Assembly (NCBI GenBank): GCA_012522795.1 | Contig: JAAYJT010000025.1 | Coordinates: 1-41,473 of the forward strand | Reading direction: 5' to 3' | DNA: 41,473 nt | Source: Bacteroidales bacterium | GTDB lineage: Bacteria > Bacteroidota > Bacteroidia > Bacteroidales > JAAYJT01 | Shown: positions 15,267-22,049 of the stretch, piece by piece | Layout: each line of letters begins with the position of its first letter | How positions within the stretch are numbered: the first letter of the stretch is position 1 | Translations under genes and position numbers: made by a program | Notes under the pieces: model-generated | The model's input: the letters and a program-made list of their open reading frames with translations, nothing else | Told to the model about the DNA's origin: nothing | Database searches by the model: none

Positions 15267-15337
15267 CGTTCGGTAACAGAAAGTGAACAGAAGCTAAAAA
15301 CTCATCACTGACCTGAAATTTTTCAGTTTTAGGTTAT

Positions 15338-15345
15338 TATTTTTG
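15338..15345 (+). promoter_or_regulatory. Possible original -7 box of prfB, now cut off
   Basis: TATTTTTG matches the -7 consensus and lies 21 bp before the left attachment repeat. In the uninserted chromosome it would be about 57 bp upstream of the prfB start. No good -33 TTTG is seen, so this is tentative. Confidence 0.3.
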
Positions 15346-15366
15346 AACTTTTAATTCATTCAGAAC

Positions 15367-15386
15367 TTTATATATACAAAACTAAT
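15367..15386. repeat. attL core of the integrative element
   Basis: The 20-bp sequence TTTATATATACAAAACTAAT is found here and again, identical and in the same orientation, at 22017-22036. The two copies flank a gene block that begins with a tyrosine integrase, as expected for attL and attR left by site-specific integration. Confidence 0.85.
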
Positions 15387-15408
15387 CTGAATAAAACAAC
15401 AAAATACT

Positions 15409-15478
15409 AAATAAATAATAAACTTATGTAAAGCCCTGATACAAGGGCTTTTTTATTTAGTTGAGTTATTATTTATTT
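15409..15478. repeat. 13-bp inverted repeat around a terminator hairpin
   Basis: AAATAAATAATAA (15409-15421) is repeated exactly in inverted orientation at 15466-15478. The pair brackets the hairpin at 15430-15454. It lies 23-92 bp inside the left end, where integrase arm-type or accessory-protein sites often lie, but low sequence complexity weakens that reading. Confidence 0.45.
15430..15454 (+). terminator. Rho-independent terminator inside the left end
   Basis: AAAGCCCT (15430-15437), loop GATACA, AGGGCTTT (15444-15451), then further Ts to 15454. It would stop transcription entering the element from recX and from the possible stranded prfB promoter. Confidence 0.75.
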
Positions 15479-15489
15479 TACTTTATTAG

Positions 15490-15519
15490 TTGTTTATTTG
15501 ATTAATATTTGTACCTTTG
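15490..15519 (+). promoter_or_regulatory. Promoter of the integrase gene
   Basis: TTG (15490-15492), 19 nt, TACCTTTG (15512-15519) matches the Bacteroidota consensus. A second near copy, GTACCTTTA, follows at about 15522. The leader to the start codon is about 60 nt. Confidence 0.6.
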
Positions 15520-15586
15520 TTGTACCTTTACCAGTTTGAAGTTGTAAGGGTTATAAAAACAGGTTTTACAATTAACATAAAGGACA

Positions 15587-16714
15587 ATGGCAACAAAGGT
15601 TACACTAAGACAAAAAACTATTTCAGGGAATAGAAAAAGCTTATATCTTGACTTTTACCCTGCAATATTGCACCCAGAAACAGGGAAACCAACAAGAAGG
15701 GAATTCTTAGGACTGTACATATTTGACAAACCTAAAAACCCATTTGATAAGGAAAGCAACAAAGAAACTTTACTATTAGCTAAAAACATACGGGCGAAAC
15801 GACAAATTGAAATTCAGGCAGAAAATTACGGCTTCCTAAGTTCAAAGCTAAAAGCAGAAACCGACTTTGTACAGTTTTTCAAACAATTAGTTGATACTAA
15901 GACAGGAAGCAATAAAAAAGTATGGCAAGCGGCATTTAATTACTTCAATATGTTCACAGGGGGCAAATTACCAGTTGCAAAGCTAAATGAAAGCTTATGT
16001 AATGAATTTAGAAAATACTTATTGACAGCAAAACGGCAAAGAAGTATTAAAAACATAAGTATTACACAAAATTCAGCCCGTACATATCATAATATATTCA
16101 AGGCAGCATTGAAGCAAGCATTTAAAAAAGGGCTTATTGATATTGATCTAAGTACACGAATAGACGGTATAAGCGGGCAAGAAACACAGCGGGAATACTT
16201 AACATTAGAACAATTACAAGCCCTTGCAAATACACCGTGTTCAATACCATTGCTTAAAAATGCAGCCATATTTTCAGCCCTTACCGGTTTACGTTTTTCT
16301 GATATTTCAAAACTTGTCTGGAGTGAAGTACATTACAGCGAATCAGAAGGGTATTACCTGCAATTCAGGCAAAAGAAAACCAAAGGCGTTGAAGTATTAC
16401 CAATTTCAGAACAAGCGCTTAACCTTTTGGGTACACCTGGCGAACCTACAAAGAAAGTATTTGAAGGGTTGAAGTATTCAGCATATTTGAATCTTCACCT
16501 AAAGCAGTGGGTTTTAAAAGCAGGAATAACAAAGGATATTACATTTCATTCATTCAGGCATACATTTGCGACCTTGCAGCTTTCAATGGGAACAGATATT
16601 TACACTGTTTCAAAAATGTTGGGACACCGTGAATTGCAAACCACACAGGTTTATGCTAAGATCATAGATGAAAGCAAGCGTAAAGCAGCTAACAGAATCA
16701 AATTAGATATGTAA
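15587..16714 (+). CDS. int: Tyrosine site-specific integrase
   Basis: This 375-aa tyrosine recombinase should catalyse integration and, with an excisionase, excision of the element at the 20-bp core. It has an N-terminal arm-type domain (residues 1-90), a SAM-like core-binding domain (about 93-190) and a catalytic domain with Arg236 (TGLRFSDIS), the His321-x-x-Arg324 motif (HSFRHTF), His347 (GHREL) and the nucleophile Tyr356 (TTQVYAKI). The catalytic set is complete. Its ATG follows TAACATAAAGGACA, a leader nearly repeated before the next gene (TAACATAAAGGGCA at 16720-16733). Confidence 0.95.
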   Translation: MATKVTLRQKTISGNRKSLYLDFYPAILHPETGKPTRREFLGLYIFDKPKNPFDKESNKETLLLAKNIRAKRQIEIQAENYGFLSSKLKAETDFVQFFKQLVDTKTGSNKKVWQAAFNYFNMFTGGKLPVAKLNESLCNEFRKYLLTAKRQRSIKNISITQNSARTYHNIFKAALKQAFKKGLIDIDLSTRIDGISGQETQREYLTLEQLQALANTPCSIPLLKNAAIFSALTGLRFSDISKLVWSEVHYSESEGYYLQFRQKKTKGVEVLPISEQALNLLGTPGEPTKKVFEGLKYSAYLNLHLKQWVLKAGITKDITFHSFRHTFATLQLSMGTDIYTVSKMLGHRELQTTQVYAKIIDESKRKAANRIKLDM

Positions 16715-16733
16715 CAATTTAACATAAAGGGCA

Positions 16734-17435
16734 ATGAAGTATTATACAAAGAAAGAAACCAAGATACAGGTTTTTGAAGGAAAAGAAACCGAATTTATAA
16801 ACTATTCACCCAAGAATGAATTTGAAAGGTTGTATTATTTGCATCCACCACCAGAACCAACAATTGAAGGAAAAGTAAAACACCTTATTATAAAGTTGTT
16901 TGAACAACTGGAAGCGGAAAGGCAAGGACGGTTGAAATACCATTTTGACCCCCACGAATTTTTAATAGTGCAAGAAGTTGATTCAAGCATTAGGGATAAA
17001 ATGTTAAGTATGTTAGCAAATACATTGGCTTATTACCCCAAAGAACTAAGAACAATACACGAACAGGATATTAGAACTTACATTGAAACATTTGAAACAA
17101 AAGAACCTTTGAAAACTGAACCAAATACAAAGGACTTTCAGTTAAGCAACTTAATTACACACAATAACAGTACTAAAATTGTTGAAGCAATTAAGATTCA
17201 ATATAAAAACATTAAAGGGAAGCGGCTTAAATTGCTGTTAATAGCATTACAGGAACTTAACTTGATACCAACAGAACGTATTGCAACTACCTTTCACAAT
17301 TGCTGTAAAAAGGAATTTAACTGGGATATTGCAAGTTATAGCGCAATGAATGATACTATTTATAATGAACTAACAGATAAAACAGAACTTGAAGGCATGA
17401 AGCAATTCATAAAAAATATAATAGGCACAAATTAA
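16734..17435 (+). CDS. Element-encoded protein of unknown function
   Basis: I do not recognise this 233-aa protein. It starts 19 bp after the integrase gene and shares a nearly identical ribosome-binding leader with it, so the two are probably expressed together. It is soluble, rich in Lys/Glu and mostly helical (ERLYYLHPPPEP early, then ERQGRLKYHFDPHEFLIVQE). The C-terminal part (about 155-233) looks like a helical bundle with CCKKEFNW. No enzymatic motif, signal peptide or membrane span is visible. Confidence 0.7.
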   Translation: MKYYTKKETKIQVFEGKETEFINYSPKNEFERLYYLHPPPEPTIEGKVKHLIIKLFEQLEAERQGRLKYHFDPHEFLIVQEVDSSIRDKMLSMLANTLAYYPKELRTIHEQDIRTYIETFETKEPLKTEPNTKDFQLSNLITHNNSTKIVEAIKIQYKNIKGKRLKLLLIALQELNLIPTERIATTFHNCCKKEFNWDIASYSAMNDTIYNELTDKTELEGMKQFIKNIIGTN

Positions 17436-17438
17436 GCA

Positions 17439-17471
17439 ACTTGTATAAACTTGTATTTACTTGTATACAAG
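17439..17471. promoter_or_regulatory. Helically phased repeat and palindrome (candidate operator)
   Basis: ACTTGTAT occurs three times at exactly 10-bp spacing (17439, 17449, 17459), and the last copy merges into the perfect 12-bp palindrome CTTGTATACAAG (17460-17471). A further TACAA follows at about 17476. The array lies 80-110 bp before the HTH/excisionase-like gene. One-turn spacing puts all sites on one DNA face, as for cooperative binding by a regulator or an excisionase. Confidence 0.65.
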
Positions 17472-17549
17472 ATAATACAACCGAATATTTGAATAAATAA
17501 CAAAGCAAGCAGGTTAAATTTGCAATGAATTATTAAATTTATTGCAGAT

Positions 17550-17900
17550 ATGACAAGTTTAACATTTGACAGATTACCAGAAGCGGTGACAATGCTTATT
17601 AGTGAAGTTAGCGAAATTAAACAATTGCTAATTGAACAACAGCCGTTACCCCCTGAACCAACAGAAAGGTTTTTGACTATTCAAGAAGCAGCGGAATTCT
17701 TAAACCTTACAGTCCCGACATTATACAGCAAAGTACACAAAAGACAAATACCCGTAATGAAACAGGGTAAACGACTATACTTTTCAAGTACTGAATTAAT
17801 GGAATACCTGAAAGCAGGGCGCAAGAAAACAAATGCTGAAATTGAACTGGAAGCAGAAGCGTATTTGCTGAATAAAAAGAAAGGGGGCAATAATGAATAG
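17550..17900 (+). CDS. Excisionase-like helix-turn-helix protein
   Basis: This 116-aa protein has a MerR-like HTH_17 domain at about residues 40-95: RFLTIQEAAEFLNLTVPTLY and KVHKRQIPVMKQGKRLYFSS, then a recognition of the EYLKAGRKK type. Such proteins in Bacteroidota integrative elements act as excisionases or regulators of excision. The N-terminal 30 residues form a likely coiled helix (LPEAVTMLISEVSEIKQLL). The phased repeat just upstream is a plausible binding site. The gene overlaps the next by 8 bp. Confidence 0.85.
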   Translation: MTSLTFDRLPEAVTMLISEVSEIKQLLIEQQPLPPEPTERFLTIQEAAEFLNLTVPTLYSKVHKRQIPVMKQGKRLYFSSTELMEYLKAGRKKTNAEIELEAEAYLLNKKKGGNNE

Positions 17901-18204
17901 ATCATTAAAAACCCCCGTTCTTTTACATAAAGGACGGTACAAAGATAAGAATTATTTTACACAATACAATAGGGTATTTACAGCGCTTTACAAGCAACCT
18001 AAAACAATGCCAATGGTTTCTATTGAAACCGGTATTTTAAGGGCTAATATTTGCCGGTACATTGCCAGAATGCAAGAAAAGGAAAGTGTAGTTGTTGTTC
18101 GCAAGGGTATTTGTCCGGTCTCAAAACACCGTGCAGAATTCTATACTACCAATTTTGTTGAACATTCAAATATTGATAGCTATGGAATTGAAACCAGTAT
18201 TTAA
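17893..18204 (+). CDS. Small winged-helix-like DNA-binding protein
   Basis: This 103-aa basic protein is of a type I recall from Bacteroidota mobile elements. The central part (YNRVFTALYKQPKTMPMVSI and TGILRANICRYIARMQEKES) reads as a helix-turn-helix, followed by a likely wing (VVVVRKGICPVSKHRAEFYTTN). It overlaps the upstream gene by 8 bp and the downstream gene by 23 bp, which indicates translational coupling. A regulatory role is inferred; no target is known. Confidence 0.65.
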   Translation: MNRSLKTPVLLHKGRYKDKNYFTQYNRVFTALYKQPKTMPMVSIETGILRANICRYIARMQEKESVVVVRKGICPVSKHRAEFYTTNFVEHSNIDSYGIETSI

Positions 18205-19576
18205 TGACCTTGACAATCCGGAAGTTATTCTAAATCATTTTAAGCAACTAAAGGTTATGTCGAAAGCAAATCAAAATCCCTTTCCGGTTGAAGTGTTTCC
18301 AGAAGCTATACAGGAAATAATAATTTCAACAAATGAAAGCTTGAAATTTCCAATTGACTTTATGGGGGCTTCAATACTTTATGCTGTTTCTGTTTCAATA
18401 GGAAATACACACCGTATTGAAGTAATGAAAGGTTGGCAAGAAACACCCGTTTTATACCTGGCTATTGTTGGGCGTGCAGGAACAAATAAAACACACCCAC
18501 TAACCTTTGCTTTAAAGCCAATTGAACAAAGGGACAATAAAAAATATCAGGAATACCTGATTGAAAAACAAAAATATGATTCTATTGTAACACTTTCTAA
18601 GAAAGAAAGGGAACAACAAGGATATGATGAACCTATAAGACCAAGTTGGGAACAAATACTAGTAACTGACTTTACACCTGAAGCGCTTGTAGATGTACAC
18701 AAATTCAATTTAAGGGGTATTGGCGTTTATAATGATGAACTGGCAAGTTGGTATAAAAACTTCAACCGGTATAACAAGGGAAGCGAAGAACAATTTTGGT
18801 TAAGTGCCTGGAGTGGTAAACCGATAAGGGTAAACCGAAAAACAAGCGAACCGAATTACATACCATTTCCGTTTATTTCAGTTATAGGGACAATTCAACC
18901 AGGTATTTTAAATGAATTAGCTGATAACAGAACTGAAAACGGATTTATAGACAGATTGCTGTTTGTTATACCTGATAACCTAAAAAAAGAATACTGGAGT
19001 GAAACAGAATTAAACCCTTTAATAACTGAAAGTTGGGAAAATATTATTTCAAACCTTTTAAATATACCATTAGAAGGGGATATAGATAATAACAGCCCTA
19101 AACCAGTAGTATTGAAGTTTAAACCCGAAGCAAGACAACTTTTAACTGAATGGCAAAGGGAATTAACAGACCTTAGTAATAAGCCCGAAAATGAAGCGAT
19201 TAGCGGTATTTATGCTAAAGTTGAAATGTATGCCGTTCGGTTTGCTTTAATACTTCAAATGTTACGGTATGCCTGCAATATAGATAATAAATATGCGATT
19301 GGTATTGAAGCTGTGCAAGGGGCGTTAAAGTTGGTTGAATATTTCACAAAAACAGCTATTAAGGTTTTTAATATTGTAACAGATGCAAGCCCACTTGACA
19401 AATTGCCACTTGATAAACAAACTTTTTATTTGAGTTTATCAGATACCTTTACAACAAATGAAGGTTTGCAAATTGCTTTAAATATGGGAATACCTGAACG
19501 AACTTACAAACGGTTTTTGAATAGAAAAGATTTATTCAAATGGACAAAACAAGGTGAATATGAAAGGTTATACTGA
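18182..19576 (+). CDS. DUF3987-type P-loop replication protein
   Basis: This protein of about 464 aa carries a Walker A-like loop GRAGTNKT (residues 97-104), followed by the DUF3987 pattern: VTDFTPEALVDV, GIGVYNDELASWYKNFNRY, SEEQFWLSAWSGKPIRVNRK, and a hydrophobic VIGTIQPGILNEL with NGFIDRLLFVIP. DUF3987 proteins are found with primase-like domains in plasmids, phages and islands and are thought to act as replicative ATPases or helicases. I start it at 18182 (MELKPVF) rather than at an upstream in-frame codon at 18092, which would lie deep inside the previous gene. The iteron array begins just past its end. Confidence 0.82.
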   Translation: MELKPVFNDLDNPEVILNHFKQLKVMSKANQNPFPVEVFPEAIQEIIISTNESLKFPIDFMGASILYAVSVSIGNTHRIEVMKGWQETPVLYLAIVGRAGTNKTHPLTFALKPIEQRDNKKYQEYLIEKQKYDSIVTLSKKEREQQGYDEPIRPSWEQILVTDFTPEALVDVHKFNLRGIGVYNDELASWYKNFNRYNKGSEEQFWLSAWSGKPIRVNRKTSEPNYIPFPFISVIGTIQPGILNELADNRTENGFIDRLLFVIPDNLKKEYWSETELNPLITESWENIISNLLNIPLEGDIDNNSPKPVVLKFKPEARQLLTEWQRELTDLSNKPENEAISGIYAKVEMYAVRFALILQMLRYACNIDNKYAIGIEAVQGALKLVEYFTKTAIKVFNIVTDASPLDKLPLDKQTFYLSLSDTFTTNEGLQIALNMGIPERTYKRFLNRKDLFKWTKQGEYERLY

Positions 19577-19583
19577 TAACATA

Positions 19584-19777
19584 CTGGCACAACTGGCACA
19601 ACTGGCATTTAGCGCTGTAATGTATTGTATTTCAAAACTTTATTTTCTTTATACAAGTGGCACTTTGTTGGCACAACTGGCATTTTCAAAAATAGTTTGT
19701 GCCACTTGTGCCAAGTTTGTGCCACTAAAAAACAAGCTAAAACCCTTGCTAATTGCGGATTGTGCCACTAATGCCAC
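19584..19777. repeat. Opposed 9-bp iteron array, candidate replication origin
   Basis: TGGCACAA-type units occur at 19585, 19594, 19603 (variant TGGCATTT), 19658 (TGGCACTT), 19669 and 19678 (TGGCATTT). The reverse form TTGTGCCA occurs at 19697, 19706, 19717 and 19760, with a shortened ATGCCAC at 19771. Spacings within each cluster are 9 or 11 bp. The two clusters point toward each other across about 12 bp of A-rich DNA. The array fills the gap between two replication-type genes, as iterons for a replication initiator would. Confidence 0.75.
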
Positions 19778-19833
19778 TAATGCAATGATGTTTTACTGTA
19801 AAACGATTAGTTAAACCGTTTATACTTTGAAAT

Positions 19834-21171
19834 ATGAATACAATGTACCAATACATATTAGAAAAAGGAAGTGTAAAATATTATTGCCCTAACTGTAAGG
19901 CAAAAACATTTGTAAAGTACATTGATACAAACACGGGTGAATATTTACCGGAACAGTACGGACGTTGCGACCGTGAAAGTAAATGTTCTTACCATTTAAA
20001 TCCTTATTCAGACGGTTACGCAAAAACTAATGTTAAACAACAAAAGCAATTTCATATTATTAAGAAACCAGAACCACAACCTGAACCAGTATTCTTTGAC
20101 TTTGATACATTCAAACAAACATTACAGACTGAACGATATAAAGAAAACACCTTTATTCAAAACCTATTTTACAACGTTGCATTTCCTTTTAAAGTTGATG
20201 ACATTACAAAGGTTGTACAGTTGTACCGGCTGGGTACGGTTGCAAAAGGCTATTGGAAGTGCGCAATAACATTTCCATTCATTGATATTGAAAATAATGT
20301 TAGGGCTATACAGGTAAAGCAATTTGATGAAAAAAACCATACCTTAAGCACTAACTTTTTACATTCAATAATTGAAAAACACCATACCAGGAACAATAAA
20401 CCTTTACCCGAATGGCTTAAAAAGTACACTGACCAGGATAAGAAAATTACATGCTTATTTGGTGAGCACCTTTTGAATAAGCACCCCAGTAACCCCGTTG
20501 CATTAGTAGAAGCACCTAAAACAGCCGTTTACGGTACGTTGTATTTCGGCTTACCTGAGACCCCTGAAGACCTTATTTGGTTAGCAGTGTACAATAAAAG
20601 CAGCTTTTCATTTGATAAATTGAAGGTATTGCAGGGGCGTTTTGTTATTGTATTTCCTGACCTTTCAAAAGACGGTAATACCTTTAAAGAATGGGAAACC
20701 AAGGCCAAAGAATATGAAAGACGTTTACCTGGAACACATTTTATTTTTTCGGAATTATTAGAACAGAAAGCACCTGACCAGGATAAAGCAGAAGGAAATG
20801 ATATTGCAGATTATTTTATAAAACATGACTGGAAGCCATTTAGGAAACAAACCGAACCTAAAAAAGTTATTGAAGTTACCCACAAAACAAAACATTTTAA
20901 TTTGCACACTGAACCATTGCCGAAAGTTGGACAAATTGTACCACCTAAGAAAACAGAAGACTGGAACAAGATCATTTCAGAACTTGAAAATTGTTTTTCA
21001 AATATTGAAATACCCGAACAACCAGTAAGGCTAAACGATTGCGCCACAATAATAAATTGTTCAACGTTTATTGAAAAGCACCTTACATTTGTTAAGGCTA
21101 ACAATGGCAACAAAACTTTTTTACCTTACCTTAGTAGATTGCAGGAATTAAAAAACAAATTAGAAGTATGA
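19834..21171 (+). CDS. Zinc-finger and toprim-like replication protein (DUF6371-like)
   Basis: This 445-aa protein starts with a zinc finger (Cys18, Cys21, Cys45, Cys51; CPNC and CDRESKC) like the CHC2-type fingers of primases. A central region has VALVEAPKTAVYGTLYFG and RFVIVFPDLSKDG, which resemble the toprim Glu and Asp-x-Asp-like parts of primases; the order fits DUF6371 proteins of Bacteroidota elements. It probably primes or helps initiate replication of the element at the adjacent iterons. The C-terminal 120 residues look like a separate helical region. It overlaps the next gene by 4 bp (ATGA). Confidence 0.72.
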   Translation: MNTMYQYILEKGSVKYYCPNCKAKTFVKYIDTNTGEYLPEQYGRCDRESKCSYHLNPYSDGYAKTNVKQQKQFHIIKKPEPQPEPVFFDFDTFKQTLQTERYKENTFIQNLFYNVAFPFKVDDITKVVQLYRLGTVAKGYWKCAITFPFIDIENNVRAIQVKQFDEKNHTLSTNFLHSIIEKHHTRNNKPLPEWLKKYTDQDKKITCLFGEHLLNKHPSNPVALVEAPKTAVYGTLYFGLPETPEDLIWLAVYNKSSFSFDKLKVLQGRFVIVFPDLSKDGNTFKEWETKAKEYERRLPGTHFIFSELLEQKAPDQDKAEGNDIADYFIKHDWKPFRKQTEPKKVIEVTHKTKHFNLHTEPLPKVGQIVPPKKTEDWNKIISELENCFSNIEIPEQPVRLNDCATIINCSTFIEKHLTFVKANNGNKTFLPYLSRLQELKNKLEV

Positions 21172-21434
21172 AAGACAGGAAAAAAACAATCAGCGAATTA
21201 GCAGAAAGAATAAAAGCTAAAGAAAATCCGGGTTATATTAGAATATGGTCGTTCAAAGATGGCAGACCTTATTTAGAGGATGAAGGCTTATCAAATGATT
21301 CATTAAAAGTAAACTTACTTGAATCAGGCGGGGGCGAATTACCCAACTGGAAAGCGTTCGACCTGGAAGCAATCGCAAATGAACCAGAGACCAGGCAACG
21401 ATTAACTAACCATAAAATAACCTCAGAGCTATGA
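21168..21434 (+). CDS. Small element-encoded protein of unknown function
   Basis: I do not recognise this 88-aa charged protein. It has a Lys/Glu-rich helical start (RKKTISELAERIKAKENPG), then a strand-like middle (YIRIWSFKDGRPYLEDEGL) and a helical end. Both ends overlap neighbours by 4 bp (ATGA at 21168-21171 and 21431-21434), which strongly supports that it is translated, as part of an operon with the primase-like gene. Confidence 0.65.
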   Translation: MKDRKKTISELAERIKAKENPGYIRIWSFKDGRPYLEDEGLSNDSLKVNLLESGGGELPNWKAFDLEAIANEPETRQRLTNHKITSEL

Positions 21435-21742
21435 ATGATTATTTAAACAACAAGGGTAAATTCAAAGCCGGCAATCCTGGCGGAGGGAGACCGAAGGGAA
21501 GCAAGAACAAATCAAGCGAAAACATTAGGAAGTTTTTTAGTGATTTTCTTGAAAAGCATATTTCAGAACTGAATGAGGCTTTCAATGAATTAGAAGCAAG
21601 GGAAAAATTCAAGGTTTTACTGGATATGGCAAAATACGTTATACCTGTACTAAGATCACAGGATAATATTATTTATGATCTATCTGACGACCTGTTTAAT
21701 GAAGTTGTTGAGCAAATCAAGAAAGAATATCAACTGGATTAA
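21431..21742 (+). CDS. Small protein with DUF5681/small-terminase-like start
   Basis: The 103-aa product starts with GKFKAGNPGGGRPKGSKNKS, an N-terminal arrangement known from DUF5681 proteins and from some phage packaging (small terminase-like) or mobile-element proteins. The rest is helical and acidic (FSDFLEKHISELNEAFNELE, DDLFNEVVEQIKKEYQLD). It could be a DNA-binding partner in packaging or replication; the short length leaves this open. It overlaps the preceding gene by 4 bp. Confidence 0.6.
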   Translation: MNDYLNNKGKFKAGNPGGGRPKGSKNKSSENIRKFFSDFLEKHISELNEAFNELEAREKFKVLLDMAKYVIPVLRSQDNIIYDLSDDLFNEVVEQIKKEYQLD

Positions 21743-21745
21743 AAC

Positions 21746-21904
21746 ATGAGTTTGAGGAGTTCAAACTCCTCGATGAATGATTTAGGTATTAAGCCTAATG
21801 AGAGCGCAAATGCTCGATTAATAAACCGAACAGTAACAGAGCAGCCGGAGGTTGTTCAAGAAGTTATATCTTTGCAATTAATACGACTGTTTTTAATAAA
21901 ATGA
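21746..21904 (+). CDS. Possible 52-aa element protein
   Basis: An ATG three bases after the preceding stop opens a 52-codon frame (MSLRSSNSSMNDLGIKPNES, continuing with TVTEQPEVVQEVISL). The amino-acid mix is protein-like, and the position fits the operon. However, its first third covers the hairpin cluster at 21754-21812, so the sequence there may be kept for structure rather than coding. Confidence 0.35.
   Translation: MSLRSSNSSMNDLGIKPNESANARLINRTVTEQPEVVQEVISLQLIRLFLIK
21754..21812. other. Cluster of three small hairpins near attR
   Basis: Within 60 bp lie GAGGAGT-TCAA-ACTCCTC (21754-21771, perfect 7-bp stem), TAGG-TATTAAG-CCTA (21782-21796) and GAGC-GCAAAT-GCTC (21801-21814 approximately). 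No T tract follows, so none is a clear terminator. They may form a structured RNA or single-strand DNA site such as an origin or packaging signal. Confidence 0.4.
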
Positions 21905-22016
21905 AATAAGCACCCGGAAAGCAGTTTTTAAGTAGTATTTGGGCACTATTTGTACCTTGAGCATAAATAAGCAACTATAATGTACTGATAATAAAACACT
22001 TAACCAAAAATATTAA

Positions 22017-22036
22017 TTTATATATACAAAACTAAT
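22017..22036. repeat. attR core of the integrative element
   Basis: Identical to the 20 bp at 15367-15386. The prfB start codon lies 13 nt to the right, so integration preserves the immediate translation-start region of prfB. Confidence 0.85.
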
Positions 22037-22049
22037 TGTCTGATAAATT

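Follow-up and report, generated by a model that had tools for sequence, protein, structure and literature searches.

The compact island at positions 15367-22036 of contig JAAYJT010000025.1, from a Bacteroidales bacterium (GCA_012522795.1; 2.88 Mb, 100 contigs, 97% complete), raises the question of what carries it between cells. The window analysed is one of the contigs of this assembly, 41,473 nucleotides in full, and an earlier note on it had proposed two vehicles, packaging by a helper phage or mobilisation by a conjugative element. That a discrete island is present is confirmed: 6670 bp are integrated between recX and prfB and end in exact 20-bp repeats. From its genes and those of its relatives, we read the island as a probable phage satellite, encoding a small terminase (TerS) of its own and belonging to a family spread through the Bacteroidota. 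Homologues of its last protein in the TerS position, together with other TerS types in its relatives, Terminase_4 included, give the helper-phage proposal better support than it had in the earlier note; mobilisation by a conjugative element fits a sister lineage, in which 26 of 32 rows carry a relaxase, but no relaxase was found on the island's own side.

The last gene resembles small terminases

The last protein of the island (103 amino acids, N-terminus GNPGGGRPKG) is probably a TerS, because its sequence relatives lie directly upstream of the large terminase (TerL) gene in prophages and several phages. It had been noticed earlier that the protein begins like DUF5681/small-terminase proteins; its own Pfam DUF5681 match is below threshold (E 0.14), but PHROGs, profile comparisons and gene context do place it there. 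The best PHROGs match is phrog_8771, a family of unknown function, which occurs at eight places in seven of 198 genomes of the order, the window among them. Three of these places adjoin a TerL gene (L165, from the same genus, L169 and L170), and at the other four (L164, L166, L167 and L168) no TerL is evident nearby by eye; in the genomes of L168 and L166, TerL relatives lie on other contigs. The TerL of L165 matches phrog_2 (1.8e-37) and that of L170 phrog_3717 (8.5e-46), and the L169 TerL is 94% identical to that of L170. The same adjacency is found in phage Pam1, where the relative directly upstream of TerL is annotated as TerS, and in APT65 and two Manatee Spring phages. Across 76 aligned columns, the window protein shares 37% identity with a prophage protein of the same-genus genome G001. 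Comparison of profiles built from six island proteins and six TerL-adjacent proteins gave 99.4% (E 1.5e-21), and hhalign of the window protein alone against the TerL-adjacent family gave 98.6% (5.5e-16); as both sets were picked by similarity, these figures confirm kinship, and the gene context is the independent part of the evidence.

Three of the places mentioned above are compact stretches in which the same GRPKG TerS-like protein accompanies a different replication gene set (L164:2705-8197, L166:5499-14794 and L167:7728-10962, the last extending into the contig end). By eye, L164 and L166 encode a DUF4373-like replication protein; both lie at tRNA-Leu, with a 16-bp repeat 6.2 kb apart in L164 and a 17-bp repeat 9.7 kb apart in L166.

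Relatives across the Bacteroidota

DUF3987 relatives of the island's replication ATPase were found in 38 of 393 genomes of the order at E 0.001, and a five-row alignment (A1) matched 9 of 395 genomes of the phylum at 1e-90. A pattern scan of an 84,980-species collection confirmed 101 relatives, the best 80 of which were retained; among these the closest DUF3987 protein is that of L062 (Vaginella, 75% identical), followed by L063, L064 and L070 (72%) and by L065 (Natronoflexus) and L066 (70%). The order int, HTH_17, small protein, DUF3987, DUF6371 is common to L062, L063, L065, L066 and L070. Families in the DUF3987 tree include Flavobacteriaceae, Cyclobacteriaceae, Chitinophagaceae, Saprospiraceae, Hymenobacteraceae, Sphingobacteriaceae, Marinilabiliaceae, Tannerellaceae and Muribaculaceae; three of the 80 relatives (L064, L129 and L132) come from bins titled Bacillota, which we took for mis-binning. 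Cultured hosts of relatives include Natronoflexus pectinivorans, Cyclobacterium roseum and the Pontibacter strain of L119.

An exact direct repeat of at least 16 bp, reaching from upstream of int to past the core, was found in 12 of 29 loci, the window counted, and overlaps a tRNA gene in five of the 12 (L065, L066, L087, L099 and L119). In L075 a 16-bp repeat covers the end of an open reading frame (ORF) read as mnmE, and L168, at tRNA-Asn, has 47-bp repeats spaced by 7456 bp; the repeat of L074 and L083 begins at a contig edge, so its length is uncertain. With repeats at tRNA genes, mnmE and other sites, the same gene order recurs at different att sites, the outcome of a search that the earlier note had proposed in related genomes. 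L062, L063, L067, L070, L075 and others lie just after the gene reading as mnmE, and these relatives have an extra small zinc-finger-like protein before int that the window island lacks. In L168 a 529-aa protein with an N-terminus similar by eye occupies the DUF3987 place (L168:4685-6274) and the DUF6371 protein is 64% identical, perhaps a swap of the replication ATPase.

Relaxase and relaxase-free lineages

A relaxase follows the core in 26 of 81 rows (80 loci and the window). Pfam recognises seven of the eight relaxase seeds as PF03432 or PF01076 and has no match for the mobilization protein of CP103138.1. The DUF3987 tree comprises 78 rows, L082, L095 and L135 having been omitted because of their length, and L090 and L069 were labelled by hand; rows with at least 1200 bases after the core count as uncut, and 10 of the 78 are cut by contig ends. 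A branch supported at 100/99 separates 32 rows (26 with a relaxase, 5 cut, 1 with none) from 46 rows that include the window and have no relaxase: 8 are labelled TerS, 3 TerSb and 1 weak HTH, 3 have a 195-aa protein only, 5 are cut and 26 have none. The TerS label takes in L090, assigned by hand for its GNPNGRPKG protein, and five half-homologues (L062, L063, L065, L066 and L111). As a control, small ORFs with GRPKG near the start occur in 2 of 48 relaxase-free loci (the window and L090, both after the core) and in none of 33 loci on the relaxase side.

The small terminases after the core are of more than one type. L119, an 8.7-kb tRNA-Ala island, has a Terminase_4 match (1.6e-23, 83.4 bits against a cut-off of 24.7), and inspection of its ORFs by eye revealed neither a large terminase nor a capsid gene. 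L099, L119 and L074 have another TerS-like protein in common, and phrog_24579 (terminase small subunit) is matched in L099 (6.9e-6), L119 (2.3e-3) and L039, which is the same contig as L074 (4.4e-4). When 45 selected proteins encoded after the core in relaxase-free loci were scanned against Pfam, 25 families were matched, none a relaxase; a broader scan took in 150 of 178 ORFs, with 25 of 89 families among the matches listed. An odd profile match of L068 upstream of DUF3987 (1.5e-9) was not counted.

The probable replication origin follows the same division in the loci counted. The GGCACAA motif, derived from the window, where it occurs seven times in the array against 0.06 expected, was counted in the 64 loci having both replication genes. 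Among the 46 of these loci where no relaxase was detected, the window being one, 25 show at least threefold enrichment (50 copies observed, 1.2 expected), as do none of the 18 relaxase loci (0 observed, 0.5 expected); the relaxase lineage may have other iterons.

These distributions bear on an alternative that we regard as unlikely, namely that the island is a relaxase-free integrative mobilisable island of the iOriT type, self-replicating and moved through an oriT on which a relaxase supplied by a conjugative or mobilisable element would act. In favour of this, 26 of the 32 sister-lineage rows, whose core is likewise int, HTH_17, DUF3987 and DUF6371, carry a relaxase, and islands having only an oriT and no relaxase are a recognised class (PMC11389934). 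DUF6371 occurs in 11 records of the plasmid collection, four typed conjugative and seven non-mobilizable, one of the seven being a circular record of 10 kb that carries cfxA and a gene annotated for a mobilization protein. A sub-threshold NikA-like protein follows the core of L076 (6.1e-4), so some relatives may be mobilised otherwise. Such mobilisation leaves unexplained why TerS-like proteins occupy the post-core place that holds the relaxase in the sister lineage, and why no relaxase was detected in 46 rows (5 cut).

We see about even chances for a broader proposal that would accommodate both sides, in which one self-replicating Bacteroidota lineage switched vehicles: a shared int/HTH_17/DUF3987/DUF6371 core would have been followed by either a relaxase or diverse phage small terminases, the latter forming a satellite family over many families at tRNA genes, mnmE and prfB, of which we found no earlier description.

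Many relaxase-free islands carry a 195-aa protein after the core, absent from the window island. It was placed at L062:13308-13895, L063:13703-14290, L066:14433-15023, L067:12714-13301, L070:12955-13545 and L075:12783-13370, is 49-86% identical in these six loci to the L038 copy, and is also found in L111; the L038 copy has no Pfam match and a chance-level PHROGs match only.

Evidence weighing against a satellite

Several observations count against the reading of the island as a satellite with its own TerS. Packaging, induction, a circular form and a helper are predictions from gene content. A recognised TerS is missing from 29 of the 46 relaxase-free rows (26 with none, 3 with the 195-aa protein only), and 5 more are contig-cut. 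In L062, L063, L065, L066 and L111 the homologue corresponds to the C-terminal (helical) half only, with first-pass E values of 8e-5 to 0.012. In the Bacteroides phages BF1-TP2, BKO1-TP3 and BS-TP4 the relative lies near the integrase and not at the terminase (L058:7965-8261, L191:3977-4270 and L192:320-703), the TerL-like gene of BF1-TP2 being about 19 kb away, and about 4 kb separates TerL from a weak relative (E 0.03) in a Hafnia phage. The host assembly has no TerL of the L170 family, the one family looked for. The structural comparison suggested earlier brought no significant match: the model of the 103-aa protein (mean pLDDT 73) matched nothing in PDB or BFVD at E <=0.001, its best BFVD row being a phage DUF5681 protein at E 2.1, and nothing in VIA-align, run with two chains only. 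For the L099 TerS-like model (pLDDT 64.8) none of 121 matches reached E 0.001, with the phage protein 2ao9 at rank 21 (E 3.1). Scans of IMG/VR returned no locus for the 103-aa protein, nor for the L099 TerS-like protein or the L170 TerS; the window DUF3987 gave one relative and no locus, records from its own or near genomes possibly being left out, and A1 gave six loci, none above 43% identity and none of the close group.

Some of these points would suit a satellite that uses a packaging site only, its 103-aa protein serving regulation or DNA binding in place of a TerS function. The placement near the integrase in the three Bacteroides phages and the 29 rows lacking a recognised TerS would fit this, and the Vibrio islands discussed below have no terS (PMC10803314). 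The position next to TerL, seen at three prophage places and in four phage records, speaks against it, and we give this version hardly any chance.

Phage records with the shared core also need care. L004 (MT836643.1) and L005 (MT836828.1), both 'Bacteriophage sp.' from human faeces, contain integrase, DUF3987, DUF6371 and relaxase-family genes and look like mobilisable islands rather than phages; as they carry relaxases, finding an element in such a record does not prove that it is packaged. A possible circle, L003 (5996 bp), was considered and rejected, the record being linear and containing only part of the core.

Gene content and insertion site

The island has eight ORFs, not the six genes counted previously, all on the + strand and all with open frames (Table 1). 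Domain matches bear out the complete tyrosine integrase, the excisionase-like HTH protein, the DUF3987 P-loop protein and the zinc finger of the protein after the iterons, all recognised in the earlier note, and they add arm and SAM-like domains to the integrase. The iteron array of the note is confirmed too. No relaxase, conjugation, capsid, tail or large terminase family is among the Pfam, PHROGs and NCBIfam matches of the eight ORFs, in agreement with the note for the first four; the relaxase that would mark an integrative mobilisable element is thus missing from these matches. The array is probably the origin, and the DUF6371 protein probably a primase-type replication protein, both roles being assigned from sequence. 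The start of DUF3987 was taken at 18185, the listed ORF beginning upstream at TTG 18092. The protein encoded just before it has no significant family in Pfam, PHROGs or NCBIfam, and its counterparts in L062 and L063 are 63-64% identical. Defence-type matches are confined to the HTH protein (NCBIfam MAD1 3.8e-9, 36.6 bits against a cut-off of 80; PADLOC mad1 2.6e-4).

Table 1. Features of the island, in positions of the window
Feature	Position	Strand	Evidence or remark
Left end repeat TTTATATATACAAAACTAAT, putative attL core	15367..15386	.	exact 20-bp copy
Repeated TTTGTACCTT stretch	15497..15533	+	70% repeat of 21927-21963
Tyrosine integrase, 375 aa	15587..16714	+	PF00589 2.6e-20, PF13102 2.4e-17, PF17293 2.2e-8
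DUF6043-like protein, 233 aa, variable slot between int and HTH_17	16734..17435	+	PF19509 7.9e-7, residues 117-217
HTH_17 excisionase / AlpA-like regulator, 116 aa	17550..17900	+	PF12728 1.7e-13; TIGR01764 excise 2.9e-11
103-aa protein, winged-helix-like by eye	17893..18204	+	conserved in close relatives
DUF3987 ATPase/helicase, 463 aa	18185..19576	+	PF13148 1.3e-59; phrog_2373 DNA helicase 8.9e-57
Iteron array	19583..19785 (approx.)	.	GGCACAA, both orientations, partly 9-bp phased; between DUF3987 and DUF6371
Zinc-ribbon + DUF6371 + DUF6965 protein, 445 aa	19834..21171	+	PF21957 6.8e-23, PF19898 1.5e-38, PF22292 4.8e-21
Orphan, 88 aa	21168..21434	+	no match in Pfam, PHROGs, NCBIfam
TerS-like protein, 103 aa, C-terminal half helical	21431..21742	+	phrog_8771 2.3e-5; profile 98.6%; context
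Right end repeat TTTATATATACAAAACTAAT, putative attR core	22017..22036	.	exact copy; 13 bp 5' of prfB start codon

The identical 20-bp ends reported earlier are indeed exact copies, with a spacing of 6650 bp. Allowing <=3 mismatches, the repeat has two matches in the window against 0.06 expected from shuffles, and the assembly contains two exact copies of its inner 16 bases, which are absent from two same-genus genomes (G001 and G002). The complete island matches a single place in the host assembly, and its G+C content is 33.9% against 36.9% in the flanks taken. G001 has recX (57% identical) and, immediately after it, prfB (85% identical), without an island between them; G002 has other neighbours, recX lying on the opposite strand downstream of prfB. 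As the 20-bp sequence is absent from G001, the empty arrangement is demonstrated but the exact attB is not, and that no exact empty 20-bp attB was found in either same-genus genome is a further point against a mobile satellite. It would suit a remnant, now immobile, of a prophage or mobilisable element that has decayed or become defective, as would the small size and the single copy in a single assembly. Eight open frames, identical end repeats, an iteron array and 70-75% identical DUF3987 proteins in the same gene order in other families of the phylum speak against decay, and we consider such a remnant very improbable.

The insertion parts prfB from recX (15267-15366; 22037-22049), its neighbour in G001, so that transcription of prfB may need a promoter in the right end of the island. 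The prfB gene opens with 21 codons and then an in-frame TGA, the release factor 2 frameshift site. The repeated TTTGTACCTT stretch may represent integrase arm sites or an int promoter; similar stretches occur near the ends of L073, L074 and L083.

Comparison with known elements

The cfxA plasmid circle CP103138.1 shares with the island a site-specific integrase, an HTH protein, an ATPase and a DUF6371 protein in circular order, but continues to a mobilization protein, which the island lacks, having the TerS-like protein instead. We take Bacteroides mobilisable elements of this type to be of the NBU / Tn4555 kind.

Among satellites, the island is best read as one that would work like a phage-inducible chromosomal island (PICI) and has the gene order of the phage-inducible chromosomal minimalist islands (PICMIs) of Vibrio, and we class it with neither. 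PICIs, SaPIs included, have int, a xis/regulator, primase-replication genes, an origin, sometimes terS, and a specific att site (PMC6092414). The island has the counterparts: 20-bp repeats with its own integrase (PF00589), DUF3987, DUF6371 and iterons as a replication module and origin with functions predicted from sequence, and a putative terS homologue by homology and context. Some PICIs encode terS behind their replication genes and use it to direct packaging (PMC6092414). The likeness is one of gene content, and the island differs in having no divergent master repressor, its ORFs all pointing one way; the existence of such a repressor in Gram-negative PICIs is called unclear in the same paper.

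PICMIs of the Vibrionaceae (PMC10803314) are likewise about 6-7 kb long (prototype 6.1 kb), have no capsid genes, and run from int through a variable gene, AlpA/HTH_17 and often a single gene to a DUF3987-type primase, with short direct repeats of 17 bp against 20 bp in the island. The island has this combination (PF00589, PF12728, itself part of the PICMI search model, and PF13148; 6670 bp), but it lies between recX and prfB and not at fis, and, the two being set side by side by description, it differs in its Bacteroidota host, its DUF6371 partner and its TerS-like gene, which PICMIs lack. The PICMI model found 135 elements in complete genomes, 67 of them in Vibrionaceae, so bare PICMI signatures have already been seen elsewhere; no complete PICMI outside Vibrio is reported in the available text (PMC10803314). 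By eye, restriction-modification-like genes follow the core of some relaxase-free islands (L090:13416-16216 and L121:8708-11182) and resemble the defence hotspot after prim in PICMIs (PMC10803314); N6_Mtase occurs in at least 3 and HsdM_N in at least 2 of the 150 Pfam-scanned proteins.

The satellite families named in PMC11389934 are P4-like, PICI, cfPICI, PLE and PICMI, besides families proposed from the sea or soil; Cyanobacteria and Actinobacteria are given there as recent additions. No report of phage satellites in Bacteroidota was found among the literature matches listed, subscription papers being mostly outside them. In the available texts, 'bacteroid' occurs 0 times in PMC6092414; of the papers on Bacteroidota or gut phages, PMC10367356 has 'satellite' in a reference only, and the word is absent from PMC12629997 and from PMC12946183, which reports lateral transduction in Bacteroides; the marine elements of PMC12324425 are different and without terminases.

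Proposed life cycle and implications

If the island is a satellite, infection or induction of a helper phage would lead the integrase and HTH_17 protein to excise it as a circle, on which the DUF3987 and DUF6371 proteins would initiate copying at the GGCACAA iterons. Through binding of the TerS-like protein to a site on the island and to the large terminase of the helper, island DNA would then be packed into helper particles, and in the next cell the integrase would insert it upstream of prfB. A satellite family in the Bacteroidota, if true, would open up phage parasitism in a phylum that is prominent in both gut and marine habitats, and the split between relaxase and TerS on one core would make a change of helper, conjugative versus viral, testable.

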